Position numbers and translations under genes: made by a program
Assembly: GCF_002934445.1 (NCBI RefSeq)
Contig: NZ_PTJE01000001.1
Span: 434,001-498,000, forward strand
DNA from: Nonlabens xylanidelens
GTDB taxonomy: Bacteria; Bacteroidota; Bacteroidia; Flavobacteriales; Flavobacteriaceae
Length of the DNA stretch: 64,000 nucleotides
Direction: 5' to 3'
Notes under the pieces: generated by a model
Databases searched by the model: none
The model's input: only the letters and a program-made list of their open reading frames with translations
Told to the model about the DNA's origin: nothing
Part shown: one piece after another, positions 1-6,175 of the stretch
How positions within the stretch are numbered: position 1 is the stretch's first letter
How the letters are laid out: every line of letters begins with the position of its first letter

Positions 1-623
1 CTCAAATCATAACCATTGCTAGAAAAACGATTTGCAAAAAAGCCTATTCTCAGTTTATCAAAACGTTTTTTTACATCTAGATTAATGTCTTGTTGTGTAA
101 AACTGCCCAATCTATAAGAAACGTTTCCATTTAGTTTTTCAGTTTTAGGCTTTTCAGTAATAATATTGATGACTCCACCCAGCGCTTCACTACCATAAAG
201 ACTACTCGCCGGACCTTTAACCACTTCTATTTGTTTGATATTACCTACTGTAATTCTACTAAGGTCAAAATTACCTGCACTGCGTCCTACTAGTGGTACA
301 CCGTCTACTAGAATAAGAATATAGTCTGACGATATTCCTTGTATTTGTACACCTTCAAAACCACTCTCATCAGACACCGTTATGATACCTGTTTGCTCGT
401 TAAGAATTTCATCTAGTCGTATAGTTCCTGACTGTAAAATGTTCTTTTTAGAAATAAGAGTCACTGGTAATGGTAGTGAAGATAATTGTCTTTCTGTACG
501 TGTTGCTGTAAGGACTATTTCTTCTAGCTTTTCTGTTGCTGTAGAGTCGATTACAGTTTGTTGGGCTACCGCTTTCGCGAAAGCGATAAAACTCAATACA
601 CTTATAAACAAATATTTACACAT
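1..623 (-). CDS. TonB-dependent receptor, N-terminal part (runs off the left edge)
   Basis: I translated this by hand from the minus strand. It starts at ATG 621-623 and stays open to the window edge, giving 207 codons. Residues 1-20 form a signal peptide ending near AVAQQ. Next comes a TonB-box-like stretch (EEIVLTATRT) and a plug domain with the typical VDGVPL, VVKGPASSLYGSEALGG and INIIT signatures. The product would be an outer-membrane gated porin that imports a chelated nutrient with TonB energy; which ligand is not visible. It faces an operon for a membrane flavoreductase across about 110 bp, which suggests iron. Residues 14-18 of the signal peptide (AFAKA) are encoded by a copy of the window-wide palindrome. 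The beta-barrel lies outside the window. Confidence 0.93.
   Translation of the reverse strand, partial: MCKYLFISVLSFIAFAKAVAQQTVIDSTATEKLEEIVLTATRTERQLSSLPLPVTLISKKNILQSGTIRLDEILNEQTGIITVSDESGFEGVQIQGISSDYILILVDGVPLVGRSAGNFDLSRITVGNIKQIEVVKGPASSLYGSEALGGVINIITEKPKTEKLNGNVSYRLGSFTQQDINLDVKKRFDKLRIGFFANRFSSNGYDL
570..585. repeat. 16-bp palindrome copy 1 (exact, coding)
   Basis: Exact CGCTTTCGCGAAAGCG. It lies in the receptor signal peptide, where it encodes AFAKA as part of the hydrophobic core and cleavage region. Confidence 0.97.
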
Positions 624-633
624 ATCACTACTT

Positions 634-644
634 AGAATCATTCT
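634..644. promoter_or_regulatory. Candidate Fur-like operator in divergent promoter
   Basis: AGAATCATTCT is a perfect 5+1+5 inverted repeat set in TTAGAAT-C-ATTCTTAA. It lies just downstream of the receptor -7 box, where a bound repressor would block transcription. A half-similar TTTAGAAT occurs at about 676-683 near the opposite promoter. The form resembles Fur-type boxes, but the assignment is inference. Confidence 0.4.
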
Positions 645-654
645 TAATAAAGTG

Positions 655-662
655 CAAATATA
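655..662 (-). promoter_or_regulatory. -7 promoter box for the TonB receptor
   Basis: On the minus strand this reads TATATTTG, matching the Bacteroidetes -7 consensus TAnnTTTG. It predicts a start near 648-650 and a leader of about 26 nt before the ATG at 623. No clear -33 TTG is seen. Confidence 0.55.
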
Positions 663-696
663 TAGTTTATTATTATTTAGAATAAATAAATATAAG

Positions 697-704
697 TATT
701 TTTG
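697..704 (+). promoter_or_regulatory. -7 promoter box for the DUF6607-like/flavoreductase operon
   Basis: TATTTTTG matches TAnnTTTG and lies 29 nt before the ATG at 734. It is the only good -7 box ahead of the five-gene operon that ends at 6175. Confidence 0.5.
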
Positions 705-733
705 CAGAAGAATAATTTTCAAAAAAATCCAAA

Positions 734-1636
734 ATGAAAACTAGCTATCTTACCTTAATAACTTTTATTACCGTCTTGTTTGCGACTGCACAAGACAAGA
801 AACAACAAGACCAAACAGCCATTAAAGACATGTGTGGTTGCTATGAAGTAACTTTTAATTTTACAGAGACCTTTAATTATTCTAACGACTCTCTTTATAA
901 ACCGTCTGCAACTAAAGTGGATAAGGCACTAGAATGGGCGCAGTTAGTAACTGATGAAGAGGATAAAATTCAAATACAGCATTTATTACAAGTAGGTAAC
1001 CCTGCAGAGCCTATGATTATCAAACACTGGAGACAGGACTGGTTGTTTGAAAATCAAGATCTATACACGTTTGATGTAAATAACAAATGGGTTTATGAGC
1101 ATAAAGCAAAAAATGATGTTGCAGGACAGTGGACACAAAAGGTATATCAAGTAGATGACAGCCCGAGATATGAGGGAAGTTCTACGTGGGTGCATGTAGA
1201 TGGCAAGAGTTATTGGGAAAACACAACTCCAGCACCACTGGCAAGAAGAGAATACACCACACGTAGTGACTATAATGTTCTTTTAAGAGGTAACAGACAA
1301 GAAATTACAGATTATGGCTGGTTACACGATCAGGATAACCATAAAATAATCAAAGAAGAAGGAAAAGAAGATGTACTTCTAGCTAAAGAAAAAGGTTATA
1401 ACACTTATGTAAAAGTAGATGACAGCCGTTGTAAAGCTGCTGCAAACTGGTGGAAAGAAAACACAGCAAAGTGGGAACTGGTAAGAGCTAAATGGGATAA
1501 TGTCTATGCTCGCAATAAAGACCTAACTCTGGAAGAAAAAGTGGATAACAAAGTTCTTTACAAACATCTCTTTAATGACGAGGTAACTGAAAAGGAACAA
1601 ATAGACCCAATTATTGAATCATTTGTAAAAAAATAA
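734..1636 (+). CDS. Secreted protein, DUF6607-like, iron-locus associated
   Basis: This 300-residue protein has an N-terminal signal peptide ending near FATAQ. An MCGCYEV motif follows at about residue 32, then a Trp- and Tyr-rich soluble body (WRQDWLFEN, SYWENTTPAP, AANWWKENTAKWELV). The MCGCYEV start and overall length recall the DUF6607 family, which I remember next to TonB receptors and PepSY proteins; that match is from memory. It is the first gene of the operon and 6 bp from the ankyrin gene. The presumed location is periplasm or outer surface. The two Cys of MCGC could bind a metal or form a disulfide. The molecular function is unknown. Confidence 0.75.
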   Translation: MKTSYLTLITFITVLFATAQDKKQQDQTAIKDMCGCYEVTFNFTETFNYSNDSLYKPSATKVDKALEWAQLVTDEEDKIQIQHLLQVGNPAEPMIIKHWRQDWLFENQDLYTFDVNNKWVYEHKAKNDVAGQWTQKVYQVDDSPRYEGSSTWVHVDGKSYWENTTPAPLARREYTTRSDYNVLLRGNRQEITDYGWLHDQDNHKIIKEEGKEDVLLAKEKGYNTYVKVDDSRCKAAANWWKENTAKWELVRAKWDNVYARNKDLTLEEKVDNKVLYKHLFNDEVTEKEQIDPIIESFVKK

Positions 1637-1642
1637 ATCACC

Positions 1643-3133
1643 ATGAAAAATATTTTTATGAAACTAGCCTTCTTGCTGATAGGCTATAGCTCAATTGCTC
1701 AACAAAATACTTTCTATTCCGGTGATTTCTGGAAAACAAATCCTAGCCTCAATGAGGTGAAATCGCTAATAGAAAAAGGAAATGATCCAGTGTCGATGAA
1801 TCAGAACGGTTTTGACGCAACAGTATATGCGATTATACGTCATGCAAATAATGATGTTATAGAACACCTTCTTTCTATAGAAGGAAACATACCTAATAAG
1901 AAAACTCATGACAGCCGTAATTATTTACATTGGGCTGCCTATTCTGGTAATGTAACTATCGTAAAGCAATTATTAAAGCTAGGATCTTCTGTAACACAGC
2001 CAGACAGTCACGGAAACACACCTCTTATGTTTGCCGCAAATGCCGGCACTAAGGATCCTGCTATCTATGACGCTTTTAAAAATCATGGAGTAGACTTAGT
2101 AAATGAGAAAAATGAACAAGGAGCCACTATCTTACTAGCTATTGCACCACATTTAGAAAATGAGAAAGAACTGTCTAGTTTTTTATCATACGGTTTAAAA
2201 CTAGAAACAGTAGATAATGATGGTAATAATGTCTTTCATTATGCTGCAAAAAAAGGAACCCTTTCTTTTTTACAAGTGCTTATAGATAAAGGTGTAGACT
2301 TTAAAGCAACTAATAAGAATGGTGGTAATGCTATTCTTATGGCTAGTCGTGGTGCACGTAACTATCAAAATACTCAAGATGTGTATGCCTTTTTAGAAAA
2401 TCTAGGAATTAAGGTAAATGTAGTTGGTGATAACGGTCGCAATCCATTGCACAGTATCGCTTATAGAAACAAAGATCTAGATCTTTTTACTTATTTCTTA
2501 GACCACGGTGTAGATGTTAACCTAAAAGATGATAACGGAAATTCTCCTTTTATGAATGCTGCAGCAAGTAATAACTTAAAGGTTGTACAGTTTTTATCTG
2601 AAAAAGTAACCGATATAAACGCGCATAATAGCGCTGGTAACACGGCACTTTCTATGGCGGTAAGTAGAAATAAAGCAGCCGTTGTTGAGTTTTTATTAGC
2701 TCATAAAGCAAATGCACAGGTAACAGATAATAAAGGAAATAACCTGGCTTATTATTTAGTCCATTCTTATAATTCTAGAAACGTAGAAGACTTTAAAACA
2801 AAAATGAAATTATTGCAAAGTAAAAAAGTGTCTATGACTGCAACACAATCTGGCGGTAATACTTTATATCATATTGCTGCAGGTGAGAATGATTTAAAGT
2901 TAATACAGTTGCTTGAAGGTCTCAAAATAGACATTAATAAAAAGAATGAAGAAGGTCTAACTGCCTTACACATCGCAGCAATGAAAGCAAAAGATGATAA
3001 GGTCATTAAATACCTTATCGATAAAGGCGCAGACACAAAACTTACTACAGATTTTGAAGAATCTGTTTATGATCTAGCAATGGAAAATGAAATTCTTCAA
3101 AAGAATAACACCTCTTTAAACTTCCTTAAATAA
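1643..3133 (+). CDS. Secreted ankyrin-repeat protein
   Basis: This 496-residue protein has a signal peptide (residues 1-19, ending SSIAQ) and then ankyrin repeats to the end. The repeats carry the usual GNTPLMFAA, GNNVFHYAAKKG, GRNPLHSIA, GNSPFMNAA, GNTALSMAV and GLTALHIAA signatures, roughly ten to twelve of them. Ankyrins bind proteins, so it probably acts as a periplasmic scaffold for its operon partners. The stop overlaps the next start (TAATG at 3131-3135), which implies translational coupling to the DUF2271 gene. Similar periplasmic ankyrins accompany some redox proteins such as catalases. A direct role in iron reduction is inference from context only. Confidence 0.88.
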   Translation: MKNIFMKLAFLLIGYSSIAQQNTFYSGDFWKTNPSLNEVKSLIEKGNDPVSMNQNGFDATVYAIIRHANNDVIEHLLSIEGNIPNKKTHDSRNYLHWAAYSGNVTIVKQLLKLGSSVTQPDSHGNTPLMFAANAGTKDPAIYDAFKNHGVDLVNEKNEQGATILLAIAPHLENEKELSSFLSYGLKLETVDNDGNNVFHYAAKKGTLSFLQVLIDKGVDFKATNKNGGNAILMASRGARNYQNTQDVYAFLENLGIKVNVVGDNGRNPLHSIAYRNKDLDLFTYFLDHGVDVNLKDDNGNSPFMNAAASNNLKVVQFLSEKVTDINAHNSAGNTALSMAVSRNKAAVVEFLLAHKANAQVTDNKGNNLAYYLVHSYNSRNVEDFKTKMKLLQSKKVSMTATQSGGNTLYHIAAGENDLKLIQLLEGLKIDINKKNEEGLTALHIAAMKAKDDKVIKYLIDKGADTKLTTDFEESVYDLAMENEILQKNNTSLNFLK

Positions 3134-3621
3134 TGAAGACACTTTTCAAAGTATTACCAGTTTTTATATTAAGCTCTTTTTTATTAATCAGTTTTATATC
3201 ACCAGTAGAAAAAGCCAGCTATAAATGTATGATCCAGTTAAAGAATTATACTGGAGAAGGTGCTTATGTAGTTATCTCTCTTCTTAATCCAGCAGGAGAA
3301 TATGAAGAGACCATCTATGTACAAGGTAAAGATAGTGAGTGGTACAGCGAGCTAGGACAGTGGTGGAAATTCTATGGTAAACACCGTCCAGATATAGATG
3401 CTATATCTGGTGCCACTATAAGTGGTGGAGAGCGCACAATAAGTGTTATTAACTTGCCTAAGGATAAAATAGATAAAGGATACAGCATCCGTTTTGAAAC
3501 TGCAGTAGAAGATCAAGAATACTATGCTCAAGATCTTCAATTTGAACTTACTACAGCAAACTTAAAAGGTAAAAAAGAAGGAACCGGTTTTATACGTTAC
3601 ATACGACTATTGCCACAGTAA
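3133..3621 (+). CDS. DUF2271 periplasmic protein with flavinylation motif
   Basis: This 162-residue protein has a signal or anchor segment at residues 5-24. The body matches the DUF2271 pattern (Ig-like beta domain, QLKNYTGEGAYVVISLLNPAG). Residues 89-95 read DAISGAT. This fits the DxxSGAT motif in which ApbE attaches FMN to the Thr, known from NqrC and RnfG; here that would be Thr95. DUF2271 proteins have been proposed as flavinylated electron carriers working with PepSY membrane proteins, and a PepSY flavoreductase follows 10 bp downstream. I infer a periplasmic FMN shuttle that takes electrons from that reductase. No ApbE gene is in this window. Confidence 0.82.
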   Translation: MKTLFKVLPVFILSSFLLISFISPVEKASYKCMIQLKNYTGEGAYVVISLLNPAGEYEETIYVQGKDSEWYSELGQWWKFYGKHRPDIDAISGATISGGERTISVINLPKDKIDKGYSIRFETAVEDQEYYAQDLQFELTTANLKGKKEGTGFIRYIRLLPQ

Positions 3622-3631
3622 CCTATATTTT

Positions 3632-5809
3632 ATGACGCTTTCTTTATGGAGATATAGTCACTTACTCCTCGCATTATTTTCTTCTTTGTTTTTAATAGTC
3701 GCATCAGTTACTGGTGTGGTACTTGCCCTGGAACCTATTTCTAATGCTACGCAAAATTATCATGTTGTAGATCTAGAAGATGTTTCTCTAGCAAGAACTC
3801 TTACACAATTAAAAAAAAACAATGAAGAGGTATTATCTATAAAAGTAACTGCAGATTCCTATGTGATAGCGTCAGTTATTACACTAGATGGGACGAGTCA
3901 AGATGTTTATATACATCCAGAAACTGGAACATCATTAGGGTTAGTAATAGGGAGAGCGCCTATCTATAGATGGACCACTAATCTACATAGATCTTTGTTC
4001 TTAAAAAGTATAGGGCGCATTTTTGTAGGTATCGTCTCTTTACTTCTTTGCTTTATCGCCTTCACTGGTATTTTATTATTAATACAACGTCAGGGCGGTT
4101 TTCTTAAATTATATGGAAAGATTAAAGAACGTGATTTTAATCAGCGTTATCATATCATATTAGGTAGGTGGTTGTTATTCCCTATTCTAATAATAGCAGT
4201 AACAGGCGTCTACCTGTCTGCAGAGAAGTTTGATCTAACGCCTAGTTTCTCCATAGAACATAACTGGAGTAAAGAACCTTCTATAGAACTATCTAGTGGA
4301 GAGTTAATCGACATTCCGTTTTTTCAGGAATTAAAAATGTCGCAAATAGACCAACTTAGTTTCCCTTTTTCTGAGGACCAGTTGGATTATTTTGAGATTA
4401 CCTTACATGATCGCGATCTTTTAGTAGATCAATATTCTGGTGAGATCATAAGTGAAGTATCGCATCCTTTTGCACATGTTCTATCCTCGTGGAGTATGAC
4501 ATTGCACACAGGAAGCGGCAGCGTCATCTGGTCTGTAATTTTACTTATCTCTAGTGCTAGTATTTTATTCTTCATCTTCTCTGGTATTGCGATGTACCTA
4601 AAAAGACGCAAAAAAGCTGTAAAAACTATAGCTCTAGCAAATAAAGAAGATGCAGAAATAGTAATTCTTGTAGGATCAGAAGGTGGTAGTACGTTCGCTT
4701 TCGCGAAAGCGATATCAAATCAATTATCTCAACAAGGGAAAAAAGTTTACTTAAGCTCTCTGAACGAATACAGCATCTATGAGAAAGCTACCCAATTTAT
4801 CATATTCACAGCCACCTATGGCGATGGTGATGCACCTACTAATGCGAGGCATTTTCTACAAAAATTAACTGTTATAGAACAACCTAATCCTATACGATTT
4901 GCAGTCTTAGGATTTGGCTCTAGAGATTATGATCACTTTTGTAAATATGCCGTAGAGGTAGACACAGCTTTACAAGAACGAGCTGGTTTCACACCTATGT
5001 TACCACTAGATAAAATTAATAGTAACGATGCTCAAGAAATTGAAAAGTGGTTAGAAAAATATAAAAGACAGACTGGTATAACATTAAAAAACGCCGATTT
5101 TAAAGAACCTACATATTCTACATTCAAGGTATTAGAATGCTCCGTATTAAATCTAGACGACACCTTTTTATTGTGCATCCAGCCTCATAAAAAATTAAAA
5201 TATAAGTCTGGAGATATATTATACATTTTGCCACCAGATGAAACTAAGCCACGTGCTTATTCTATCGCTAGAATAGATAATTACATACTATTAAGTATTA
5301 AAAAGCACGATCGCGGTGTATGCTCTACTTATCTCAATGAATTAAAAATTGGTGATCAAATAGAGGCTTACATAAAACAGAATGAAAGATTCCATCTTCC
5401 TAAAAAAGAACGATCAGTTATTATGATTTCTAATGGTACTGGTATTGCACCATTCTTAGGAATGATTAATGAGAAGAAAAGTAAAAAAAGAGAACTACAT
5501 CTATATTGGGGTGGTCGTAGTACAGGTAGTTTTGATTTATACCAGCCTTATCTCAAACAGACATCTTTATCTAGTCTACGACTGGCCTATTCTAGAGAAA
5601 TGGATAAAAGGTATATACAACACAAAATATGGGATCAAAGGGTAGAAATAGCAATTCTACTATCTAACGGTAGTCCCATTATGATTTGTGGATCTCTTGC
5701 AATGATGAATGATGTGCTAGCAACAATAGAAAAAATAACCATAGAACAACTGGGTAAACCTTTAAGTGTTTTTGAACAAAGAGGACAAGTACTTACCGAC
5801 TGTTATTAA
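3632..5809 (+). CDS. PepSY membrane / flavodoxin / ferredoxin-NADP reductase fusion
   Basis: This 725-residue fusion has a PepSY-associated membrane part with helices near 10-33, 126-150, 178-198 and 298-323, and periplasmic loops between. His119, His174 and His292 lie at helix ends as possible heme ligands. A flavodoxin domain follows (about 343-470, GSEGGST loop, TATYGDGD), then a CysJ-like FAD domain (RAYSIARI, CSTYLNEL) and an NADPH domain (SNGTGIAPFLGM, WGGRS, QRGQVLTDCY). It probably carries electrons from NADPH through FAD and FMN across the inner membrane to a periplasmic acceptor, the DUF2271 neighbour being the best candidate, for ferric or cofactor reduction. Residues 356-360 of the flavodoxin first helix are encoded by a palindrome copy. 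Confidence 0.9.
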   Translation: MTLSLWRYSHLLLALFSSLFLIVASVTGVVLALEPISNATQNYHVVDLEDVSLARTLTQLKKNNEEVLSIKVTADSYVIASVITLDGTSQDVYIHPETGTSLGLVIGRAPIYRWTTNLHRSLFLKSIGRIFVGIVSLLLCFIAFTGILLLIQRQGGFLKLYGKIKERDFNQRYHIILGRWLLFPILIIAVTGVYLSAEKFDLTPSFSIEHNWSKEPSIELSSGELIDIPFFQELKMSQIDQLSFPFSEDQLDYFEITLHDRDLLVDQYSGEIISEVSHPFAHVLSSWSMTLHTGSGSVIWSVILLISSASILFFIFSGIAMYLKRRKKAVKTIALANKEDAEIVILVGSEGGSTFAFAKAISNQLSQQGKKVYLSSLNEYSIYEKATQFIIFTATYGDGDAPTNARHFLQKLTVIEQPNPIRFAVLGFGSRDYDHFCKYAVEVDTALQERAGFTPMLPLDKINSNDAQEIEKWLEKYKRQTGITLKNADFKEPTYSTFKVLECSVLNLDDTFLLCIQPHKKLKYKSGDILYILPPDETKPRAYSIARIDNYILLSIKKHDRGVCSTYLNELKIGDQIEAYIKQNERFHLPKKERSVIMISNGTGIAPFLGMINEKKSKKRELHLYWGGRSTGSFDLYQPYLKQTSLSSLRLAYSREMDKRYIQHKIWDQRVEIAILLSNGSPIMICGSLAMMNDVLATIEKITIEQLGKPLSVFEQRGQVLTDCY
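4696..4711. repeat. 16-bp palindrome copy 2 (exact, coding)
   Basis: Exact CGCTTTCGCGAAAGCG in the flavodoxin domain, encoding AFAKA (residues 356-360) on the helix just after the FMN phosphate loop. Confidence 0.97.
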
Positions 5810-5821
5810 AACGATAGACTT

Positions 5822-6175
5822 ATGTGTAATAAAGTAAAAACACTTGCCAAAAACAAACAAGGACAGCTGTCCTACTGCACTGGATGCAAAGTCTATAAAC
5901 TTATCTTTAATAATCTAAATTTTGAGTTGTATCCTAAACAGTTTAGAAATTTAAGAGCTTATGTAAACGAGATAGAGGTAGAATACTGGGAAATAAAGCA
6001 TGATCGCATGCCTATGAAACGTAAAATACCAATACCTTCTACTCAACAAAATCTTACTATGATGTTTGATAAACATGAAATCGTGCTGCTTAAATCACTT
6101 CTTAATGAAGAAACGGTTAAACCTATGGAGACACTCGCTATTACCGATATTGATTACACCTTGTTCTTAAATTAA
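5822..6175 (+). CDS. Small Cys-containing protein, DUF6686-like
   Basis: This 117-residue protein has no signal peptide. Cys18 and Cys21 (YCTGCKVY) lie near the N-terminus with Cys2, and a hydrophobic beta-rich stretch (YKLIFNNLNFEL) follows. It resembles a small conserved Bacteroidetes family (DUF6686, from memory). As the last gene of the putative iron-reduction operon, 12 bp after the reductase, it is probably cytoplasmic and may bind a metal or act as a local sensor. No catalytic motif is visible, so the function is unknown. Confidence 0.7.
   Translation: MCNKVKTLAKNKQGQLSYCTGCKVYKLIFNNLNFELYPKQFRNLRAYVNEIEVEYWEIKHDRMPMKRKIPIPSTQQNLTMMFDKHEIVLLKSLLNEETVKPMETLAITDIDYTLFLN

Follow-up and report, generated by a model that had tools for sequence, protein, structure and literature searches.

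Gene content of the locus

The genome of Nonlabens xylanidelens (3.28 Mb in 21 contigs) carries, in the first piece (1-6175) of the 64,000-nucleotide stretch that was analysed (the window; contig NZ_PTJE01000001.1, positions 434,001-498,000, forward strand), a compact locus in which relatives of haem uptake proteins are encoded together with a candidate flavin-dependent transmembrane reductase. Five co-directional genes spanning 734-6175 encode a DUF6607 protein, an ankyrin-repeat protein, a DUF2271 protein, a PepSY-flavodoxin-FNR fusion and a DUF6686 protein, with intergenic distances of 6, -1, 10 and 12 nucleotides, and a gene for a TonB-dependent receptor is oriented divergently from them. 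This gene set and its positions, as well as the divergent receptor, had been reported in an initial annotation of the sequence and agree with the open reading frames and Pfam matches; the tight packing is in line with its proposal that a secreted ankyrin protein and a DUF6607-like protein share an operon.

The window holds the N-terminal part of the receptor (1-623, minus strand), and the rest lies beyond its edge. On a stretch of the genome that reaches past this edge (L003; loci are numbered L and genomes G throughout) the gene is complete (L003:8543-10624, minus strand), with Pfam matches to both the plug (PF07715) and the beta-barrel (PF00593), and its start is probably the ATG at window position 623 rather than the TTG at 722. 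It is followed on the same strand by a gene for a lipoprotein-like HmuY-family protein of 204 amino acids (L003:7909-8523; PF14064, 1.4e-11, 45.2 bits against a cut-off of 27), and then by a gene for a Fur-family regulator (L003:7323-7775, minus strand; PF01475). By these domain assignments, receptor, HmuY-family lipoprotein and Fur-family gene form a putative haem-type locus.

The first gene of the operon (734-1636, plus strand) encodes the DUF6607 protein (PF20311, 5e-98), the N-terminus of which resembles a signal peptide by eye. Its one convincing match in the PDB (phmmer) was 8XJC, a 'haemophore' (1e-88), upon which the assignment to a family of unknown function was dropped. This entry is RhuH from Riemerella anatipestifer; the protein was published in 2025 as a haemophore and according to the published text binds haem with a dissociation constant of 3.44e-11 M and takes it from haemoglobin (PMC11967795). 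The window protein is 48% identical to RhuH over 290 positions, and its His98 aligns with RhuH His96, the haem-iron ligand. In the same text this ligand and five propionate contacts come from an AlphaFold3 model, with His96 also mutated, and three homologues of 50-64% identity are described as behaving like RhuH (PMC11967795). His96, Arg143, Tyr144, Arg170, Arg183 and Gln198 (RhuH numbering) are invariant in all 66 rows of our alignment, made up of 8XJC and 65 homologues including the window protein. We regard the DUF6607 protein as a probable RhuH-type haemophore homologue, with haem binding as a prediction; because it is RhuH-like and the receptor is adjoined by an HmuY-family lipoprotein, the ligand of the system is most probably haem. 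In a tree obtained by a quick method and with modest support, the window protein falls into a subfamily consisting mostly of reductase-linked genes, and 8XJC clusters with RhuH genes that lack a reductase.

The transmembrane reductase and its flavin carrier

The fourth gene of the operon (3632-5809, plus strand) encodes a fusion of 725 amino acids with an N-terminal, FoxB-like PepSY_TM domain (PF03929, 3e-36 in Pfam). In its cytosolic half, a flavodoxin domain (4664-5029, plus strand; PF00258, residues 345-466) and the NAD(P)-binding part of an FNR module (5423-5716, plus strand; PF00175, residues 598-695) score above the cut-offs, and the part for flavin adenine dinucleotide (FAD; PF00970) scores below. 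This half also matches the flavoproteins nitric oxide synthase, P450 reductase and sulfite reductase, and is predicted to be a diflavin reductase. The membrane half (3632-4633, plus strand) was modelled from an alignment of 53 sequences (residues 1-334; predicted local distance difference test (pLDDT) 91, predicted template modelling score (pTM) 0.86). A phmmer search with this half against the PDB returned no relative; when candidates from Foldseek were aligned with VIA-align, the siderophore reductase FoxB (7ABW) ranked first with a Z score of 16.5 over 309 residues (root-mean-square deviation 8.8), the next entry reaching 6.2. His10, His119, His174 and His292 are invariant in all 53 aligned fusions and lie near the ends of membrane helices in the model, His10 and His174 at one face and His119 and His292 at the other, a pairing as would be expected for two haems. 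Judged from the model, the membrane half therefore resembles FoxB. The C-terminal residues DCY of the fusion are invariant in the 18 sequences aligned there. Since the model of the whole fusion has a pTM of 0.43, its domains alone were interpreted.

The gene upstream of the fusion (3133-3621, plus strand) encodes the single DUF2271 match of the genome (PF10029, 2e-38), a probable substrate of the flavin transferase ApbE. Direct reading of the translation verified the motif DAISGAT noted initially at residues 89-95 (3397-3417, plus strand), which fits the flavinylation pattern [S/T]GA[S/T]. The presence of ApbE, on which the earlier reading as a flavin-based transmembrane electron-transfer locus tied to TonB-linked iron uptake depended, was established by a genome search: there is one ApbE (PF02424, 6e-73), about 660 kb from the locus, and the reading is supported. 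Its N-terminus is lipoprotein-like by eye, and therefore the enzyme would act outside the cytosol. In another species, a DUF2271 protein is reported to receive flavin on the motif threonine from its own ApbE (PMC8238504), and Thr95 of the window protein would correspondingly carry covalently bound flavin mononucleotide (FMN).

Conservation of this motif was followed in a family sample of 199 genomes from 198 genera (nearly one per genus), whose assignment to the Flavobacteriaceae was judged from named relatives. ApbE was matched in 196 of these genomes, the three misses being 64-84% complete. DUF2271 was matched in 62 genomes, in 59 of them above the curated cut-off, at 61 strong places; three matches under the cut-off (G400, G342, G377) were left out of the linkage counts below. 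Among 59 DUF2271 proteins, residue 95 is threonine in 58 and serine in one, and residue 94 is alanine in 48, glutamate in nine and proline in two, with an exact fit to [S/T]GA[S/T] in 47. The nine GET-type proteins, which keep the threonine (L113, L118, L121, L122, L126, L127, L128, L129, L130), represent a natural test of ApbE specificity; the GPT type occurs at L154 and L155. At L152 (G356:C12) DUF2271 is apparently fused to ApbE in one frame, and the same genome has a reductase-less RhuH locus (L174).

Between the DUF6607 and DUF2271 genes lies the ankyrin-repeat gene (1643-3133, plus strand; Pfam), the product of which has a signal-peptide-like N-terminus by eye and no cysteine. In 55 of the 61 loci an ankyrin gene lies no more than six genes and 9 kb from DUF2271; of the 60 loci that have an anchor, 54 have it at a distance of at most two genes. 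The operon membership recognised in the initial annotation thus stands, and the gene proves to be a near-constant member of the reductase core and not an incidental passenger. His89 is kept in 54 and His410 in 53 of 55 ankyrin proteins; a scaffold role appears more likely than a redox role, and there are known cases of periplasmic ankyrin proteins that assist haem enzymes (PMC7567364). The last gene (5822-6175, plus strand) encodes the DUF6686 protein (PF20391, 1e-43), in which Cys19 and Cys22 of a CxxC motif are invariant in 15 of 15 sequences and Cys2 is kept in 14, which suggests a metal or Fe-S site. In some loci a protein of about 118 amino acids (cluster c12) follows DUF6686.

Linkage, exchangeable partners and promoter palindromes

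DUF2271 and DUF6607 genes were considered linked when they lay on the same strand and not more than 12 kb apart. This applies to 36 of the 61 DUF2271 places, with a gap of 1.55-1.80 kb in 33 of them, and with such a near-constant distance the association of the genes is not due to chance. DUF6607 was matched in 65 genomes of the family sample; both families occur in 44, DUF2271 alone in 15, DUF6607 alone in 21 and neither in 119 (Fisher p 8e-16, uncorrected for kinship). The fusion gene is present in 57 of the 61 loci, and 32 of the 36 RhuH-linked loci encode a protein of the HmuY cluster no more than two genes away from the receptor. Members of this cluster are single-domain or longer, PF14064 being matched by 35 of the 40 longer proteins; one further DUF2271 locus of the 61 has HmuY without RhuH. 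In the neighbourhood counts L152 contributes no anchor or core open reading frame, and L180, which lies at a contig end with an ankyrin gene after RhuH, is counted as unlinked there and in the linkage counts, and as linked in the RhuH tree. Among 80 named relatives, the best 80 of at least 584 and thus biased toward a window-like organisation, ankyrin and DUF2271 genes were each found in 79, RhuH in 71 and RhuH with HmuY in 66; some of these contigs are shared with the family sample. A gene for a protein of about 807 amino acids lies between RhuH and ankyrin at L117 (3786-6206), L203, L213, L217, L225 and L246, and the copy at L117 encodes a second TonB receptor. The window locus thereby suggests a likely role for the reductase genes found beside DUF6607 in many flavobacteria, among them Tenacibaculum; Dokdonia pacifica has such a locus as well (L185).

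The reductase core also occurs with another ligand-binding partner. In 12 of the 61 DUF2271 loci (11 without RhuH and one with it) we found a lipoprotein-like protein of about 458 amino acids, mostly encoded behind a receptor of about 805 amino acids. A single-sequence search had given no match to XusB, and Pfam DUF4374 matched one of the 12 proteins (0.0016); a profile built from all 12 (A3) matched XusB in the PDB (4e-6, positions 264-449 of 458), after which the label of unknown protein was abandoned. The XusABC system of Bacteroides is described as importing xenosiderophores, with XusC as a PepSY reductase (PMC13142918). At L115 (8353-12171), L228 and L243 the XusA/XusB-like pair sits between DUF2271 and the PepSY fusion. 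One reductase core would thus be common to haem and siderophore modules, and its choice of substrate can be tested by comparing such natural variants.

Conversely, RhuH genes without DUF2271 recur beside another candidate flavin carrier. An FMN_bind-like protein is encoded within two genes of RhuH in nine of the 29 RhuH loci that lack DUF2271 (L158, L159, L161, L163, L165-L169; some of the called open reading frames overlap the RhuH stop). All ten proteins of this cluster contain GATIS, and the one member scanned matched PF04205 with 22.6 bits against a cut-off of 22. RhuH is hence tied to a flavin carrier in two ways, through DUF2271 or, in its absence, through an FMN_bind-like neighbour, and we see in this recurrence the strongest indication that flavin chemistry plays a part in haem uptake. 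A further cluster of 13 membrane proteins of about 149 amino acids is confined to RhuH-only loci (L157, L159, L160, L163, L166, L167, L169 and others); its members adjoin HmuY in the loci inspected, and the one scanned matched DoxX with 24.1 bits against 23.6.

The promoter region common to the receptor and the DUF6607 operon contains two copies of an operator-like palindrome, identified by pattern search. The first (628-650) has two mismatches to TTATTTAGANTNANTCTNAATAA, adjoins the receptor start and is a probable Fur box; the second (673-695), with three mismatches, lies upstream of the DUF6607 gene. A palindrome model derived from 21 RhuH-only promoters exceeded the 95th percentile of shuffled sequences in all 30 reductase-linked promoters, the window's included, in a hold-out that is not fully independent, as the search began from a pattern selected by eye in promoters of the reductase-linked group; 29 of these 30 promoters contain a second copy. 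Genome-wide the pattern matched 17 times on each strand, and its reversed control 6 and 4 times (a palindrome may count on both strands). The matches of the pattern correspond to 14 locations, namely the window, eight that were inspected, and five others that all have three mismatches. At the eight inspected locations the neighbouring genes are those for FeoB, for an imelysin, for a TonB receptor together with another PepSY_TM protein, and a DUF4856-imelysin operon, and further copies lie near nqrA, hemA, succinate dehydrogenase cytochrome b (L287, L286, L288) and a receptor-like open reading frame. The second PepSY_TM protein (376 amino acids) is encoded behind a CarbopepD_reg TonB receptor with two palindromes upstream (L284:79-3690); the DUF4856-imelysin operon has three palindromes and the other imelysin gene two (L285:1147-3621, L283:2380-3537), and imelysin genes also lie near the reductase core at L108 and L154. 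We consider the palindrome a putative Fur box, with Fur as its probable regulator, and iron control of the locus likely. In Riemerella, B739_0173-0177 are reported to be all upregulated under iron limitation (log2 3.31, 3.64, 2.41, 3.06 and 1.05), in an experiment for which the authors mention differing cell densities (PMC5429918), and Fur is reported to bind the B739_0173 promoter (PMC7976709).

Proposed electron route, alternatives and known systems

Taken together, the locus is probably (at a probability of roughly 0.6) an operon for haem acquisition that is controlled by iron and includes a transmembrane NAD(P)H-to-periplasm reductase. This interpretation is supported by the HmuY-family gene beside the receptor, the homology to RhuH, the conserved linkage, the FoxB-like fold with its four histidines, the diflavin-reductase match of the cytosolic half, the presence of ApbE, the shared palindromes, the FMN_bind-like neighbours of RhuH and the iron response of the Riemerella genes. 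When iron is scarce, haem would be caught by the RhuH-type haemophore and the HmuY-family lipoprotein and passed to the TonB receptor for import into the periplasm. Cytosolic NAD(P)H would supply electrons, which would flow through the FAD and then the FMN module of the fusion, cross the inner membrane via two haems held by the four histidines, and reach the FMN that ApbE would have placed covalently on Thr95 of DUF2271. From there they might be transferred to the ferric iron of imported haem, or to iron released from it, and ferrous iron could then be imported by FeoB, with the ankyrin protein probably holding the periplasmic partners together. The ferric-reduction and uptake module of the initial annotation thereby keeps its tie to iron uptake, and its generic ferric substrate is sharpened to most probably haem by the RhuH-type and HmuY-family partners.

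Several observations weigh against this interpretation. Haem is not the only client of the reductase core, which also occurs with an XusB-like partner and no RhuH (11/61 loci) or with neither gene nearby (12/61), and flavinylation may not be universal, as the exact motif is found in 47 of the 59 DUF2271 proteins. In a class-wide sample of 247 genomes, DUF6607 and DUF2271 were each matched in 16 and both in six (four of them of the window's family), and among these six the two were linked only in the window's genome; G256, which belongs to the same genus as the window genome, matched neither family. For the membrane half, Foldseek by itself found nothing in the PDB at E <= 0.001. Compared by eye, the palindrome and the 19-bp Riemerella Fur box of the literature are not the same. 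As for the fate of haem, CobN/HmuS (PF02514) was unmatched in the genome, as it was in a Bacteroides control genome, and so was the haem oxygenase family PF01126, other haem-degrading families not having been searched. A classical Hmu operon was rejected on this CobN/HmuS search, negative in the genome and in the control alike.

It is tempting to go further and to propose a dedicated haem reductase of the flavobacterial envelope, in which a flavin and haem wire from NAD(P)H to the periplasm, with the covalently flavinylated carrier at its end and the ankyrin protein as scaffold, would reduce the haem delivered by the haemophore. We advance this tentatively; HmuS and a classical haem oxygenase were unmatched in the one genome searched. 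The locus is a compact candidate in which the partners can be named, and on this reading the FMN_bind-like neighbours of RhuH would have met the same requirement independently. The core might instead reduce ferric iron or ferric siderophores in general, with haem and siderophore modules exchanged around it and no more than a common operon connecting it to the haem locus; it would then act on released or chelated Fe(III), never on haem. The XusB-like partners in 12 of 61 loci would fit such a role, FoxB and XusC are described as siderophore reductases, iron reduction by PepSY clusters has been proposed (eLife 2021, PMC8238504), and insertions in a PepSY/DUF2271 locus of Caulobacter are reported to cut fitness in ethylenediaminetetraacetic acid (PMC12004947). 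We nevertheless find it less likely, given that RhuH is by far the commonest partner (36/61, and 71 of the 80 named relatives, the best 80 of at least 584), that the reductase genes follow the haemophore gene in the same operon, and that FMN_bind-like proteins recur beside RhuH where DUF2271 is lacking (9/29).

The carrier itself could be read differently, with DUF2271 unflavinylated, its motif vestigial, and the protein serving the PepSY reductase simply as a docking partner or as a binder of haem or iron. The GET and GPT variants of 11 among 59 relatives are in line with this, as is the distance of the sole ApbE, for which the FMN_bind protein encoded at the nqr locus may be a further substrate; yet the window protein has the canonical DAISGAT, threonine or serine is kept at residue 95 in 59 of 59, a DUF2271 protein has been reported as flavinylated elsewhere (PMC8238504), and FMN_bind-like proteins recur beside RhuH, so that we judge this improbable. 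Still less credible is a function other than uptake, in which the chain would protect or repair haem or methionine of the periplasm by redox chemistry, similar to MsrPQ or to an ankyrin-catalase pair. In Leptospira the genes for an ankyrin protein and a periplasmic catalase lie in one operon, and for Pseudomonas ankyrin proteins are cited as a requirement for catalase activity (PMC7567364); the membrane cores of PepSY proteins and MsrQ are alike. However, a Pfam scan of seven window and six L003 proteins returned no catalase, MsrP or peroxidase domain, and the partners and shared palindromes belong to iron uptake.

PepSY/DUF2271 systems with a proposed iron role, RhuH and HmuY are already published. 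Among the open-access papers listed, no title or opening of an abstract connects a DUF2271 reductase with a haemophore, and DUF6607 by name gave no paper; the supplementary tables of the eLife study may contain such loci. The combination of haemophore, flavin reductase and ankyrin protein in a conserved operon did not appear in the literature searched. The flavinylated PepSY/DUF2271 systems of Meheust et al. (2021, PMC8238504) share with the window a PepSY_TM protein with NAD-binding domain, a DUF2271 substrate, a TonB receptor and the link to iron. The window adds the RhuH-type haemophore, HmuY and ankyrin, and has no apbE in the cluster and no DUF4198 match among the seven window proteins scanned; the main text of that study does not mention ankyrin, and the parts consulted discuss siderophore-bound and ferrous iron. 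FoxB (7ABW) and XusC are similar to the window protein in the PepSY_TM fold (Z 16.5 to 7ABW) and in having four histidines; the window protein differs by its fusion to a cytosolic flavodoxin-FNR module and its pairing with DUF2271. The Hmu system with its NADH-dependent de-chelatase HmuS (PMC12583661) shares the HmuY family, a TonB receptor and the need of electrons for haem iron, whereas the window genome has no CobN/HmuS match and the locus encodes a transmembrane reductase instead. Closest on the uptake side is RhuH-RhuR-RhuA of Riemerella anatipestifer (PMC11967795), in which RhuH is likewise divergent from a TonB receptor with an iron-controlled common promoter, and the receptor is followed, as in the window, by a haem-binding outer-membrane protein; the published text describes no reductase genes at that locus, and the window RhuH belongs to a sister subfamily (with modest support). 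In the same species, B739_0173-0177 (PMC5429918) are annotated as receptor, hypothetical protein, ankyrin, predicted periplasmic protein and 'nitric oxide synthase', and thus resemble the window locus by annotation and gene order.

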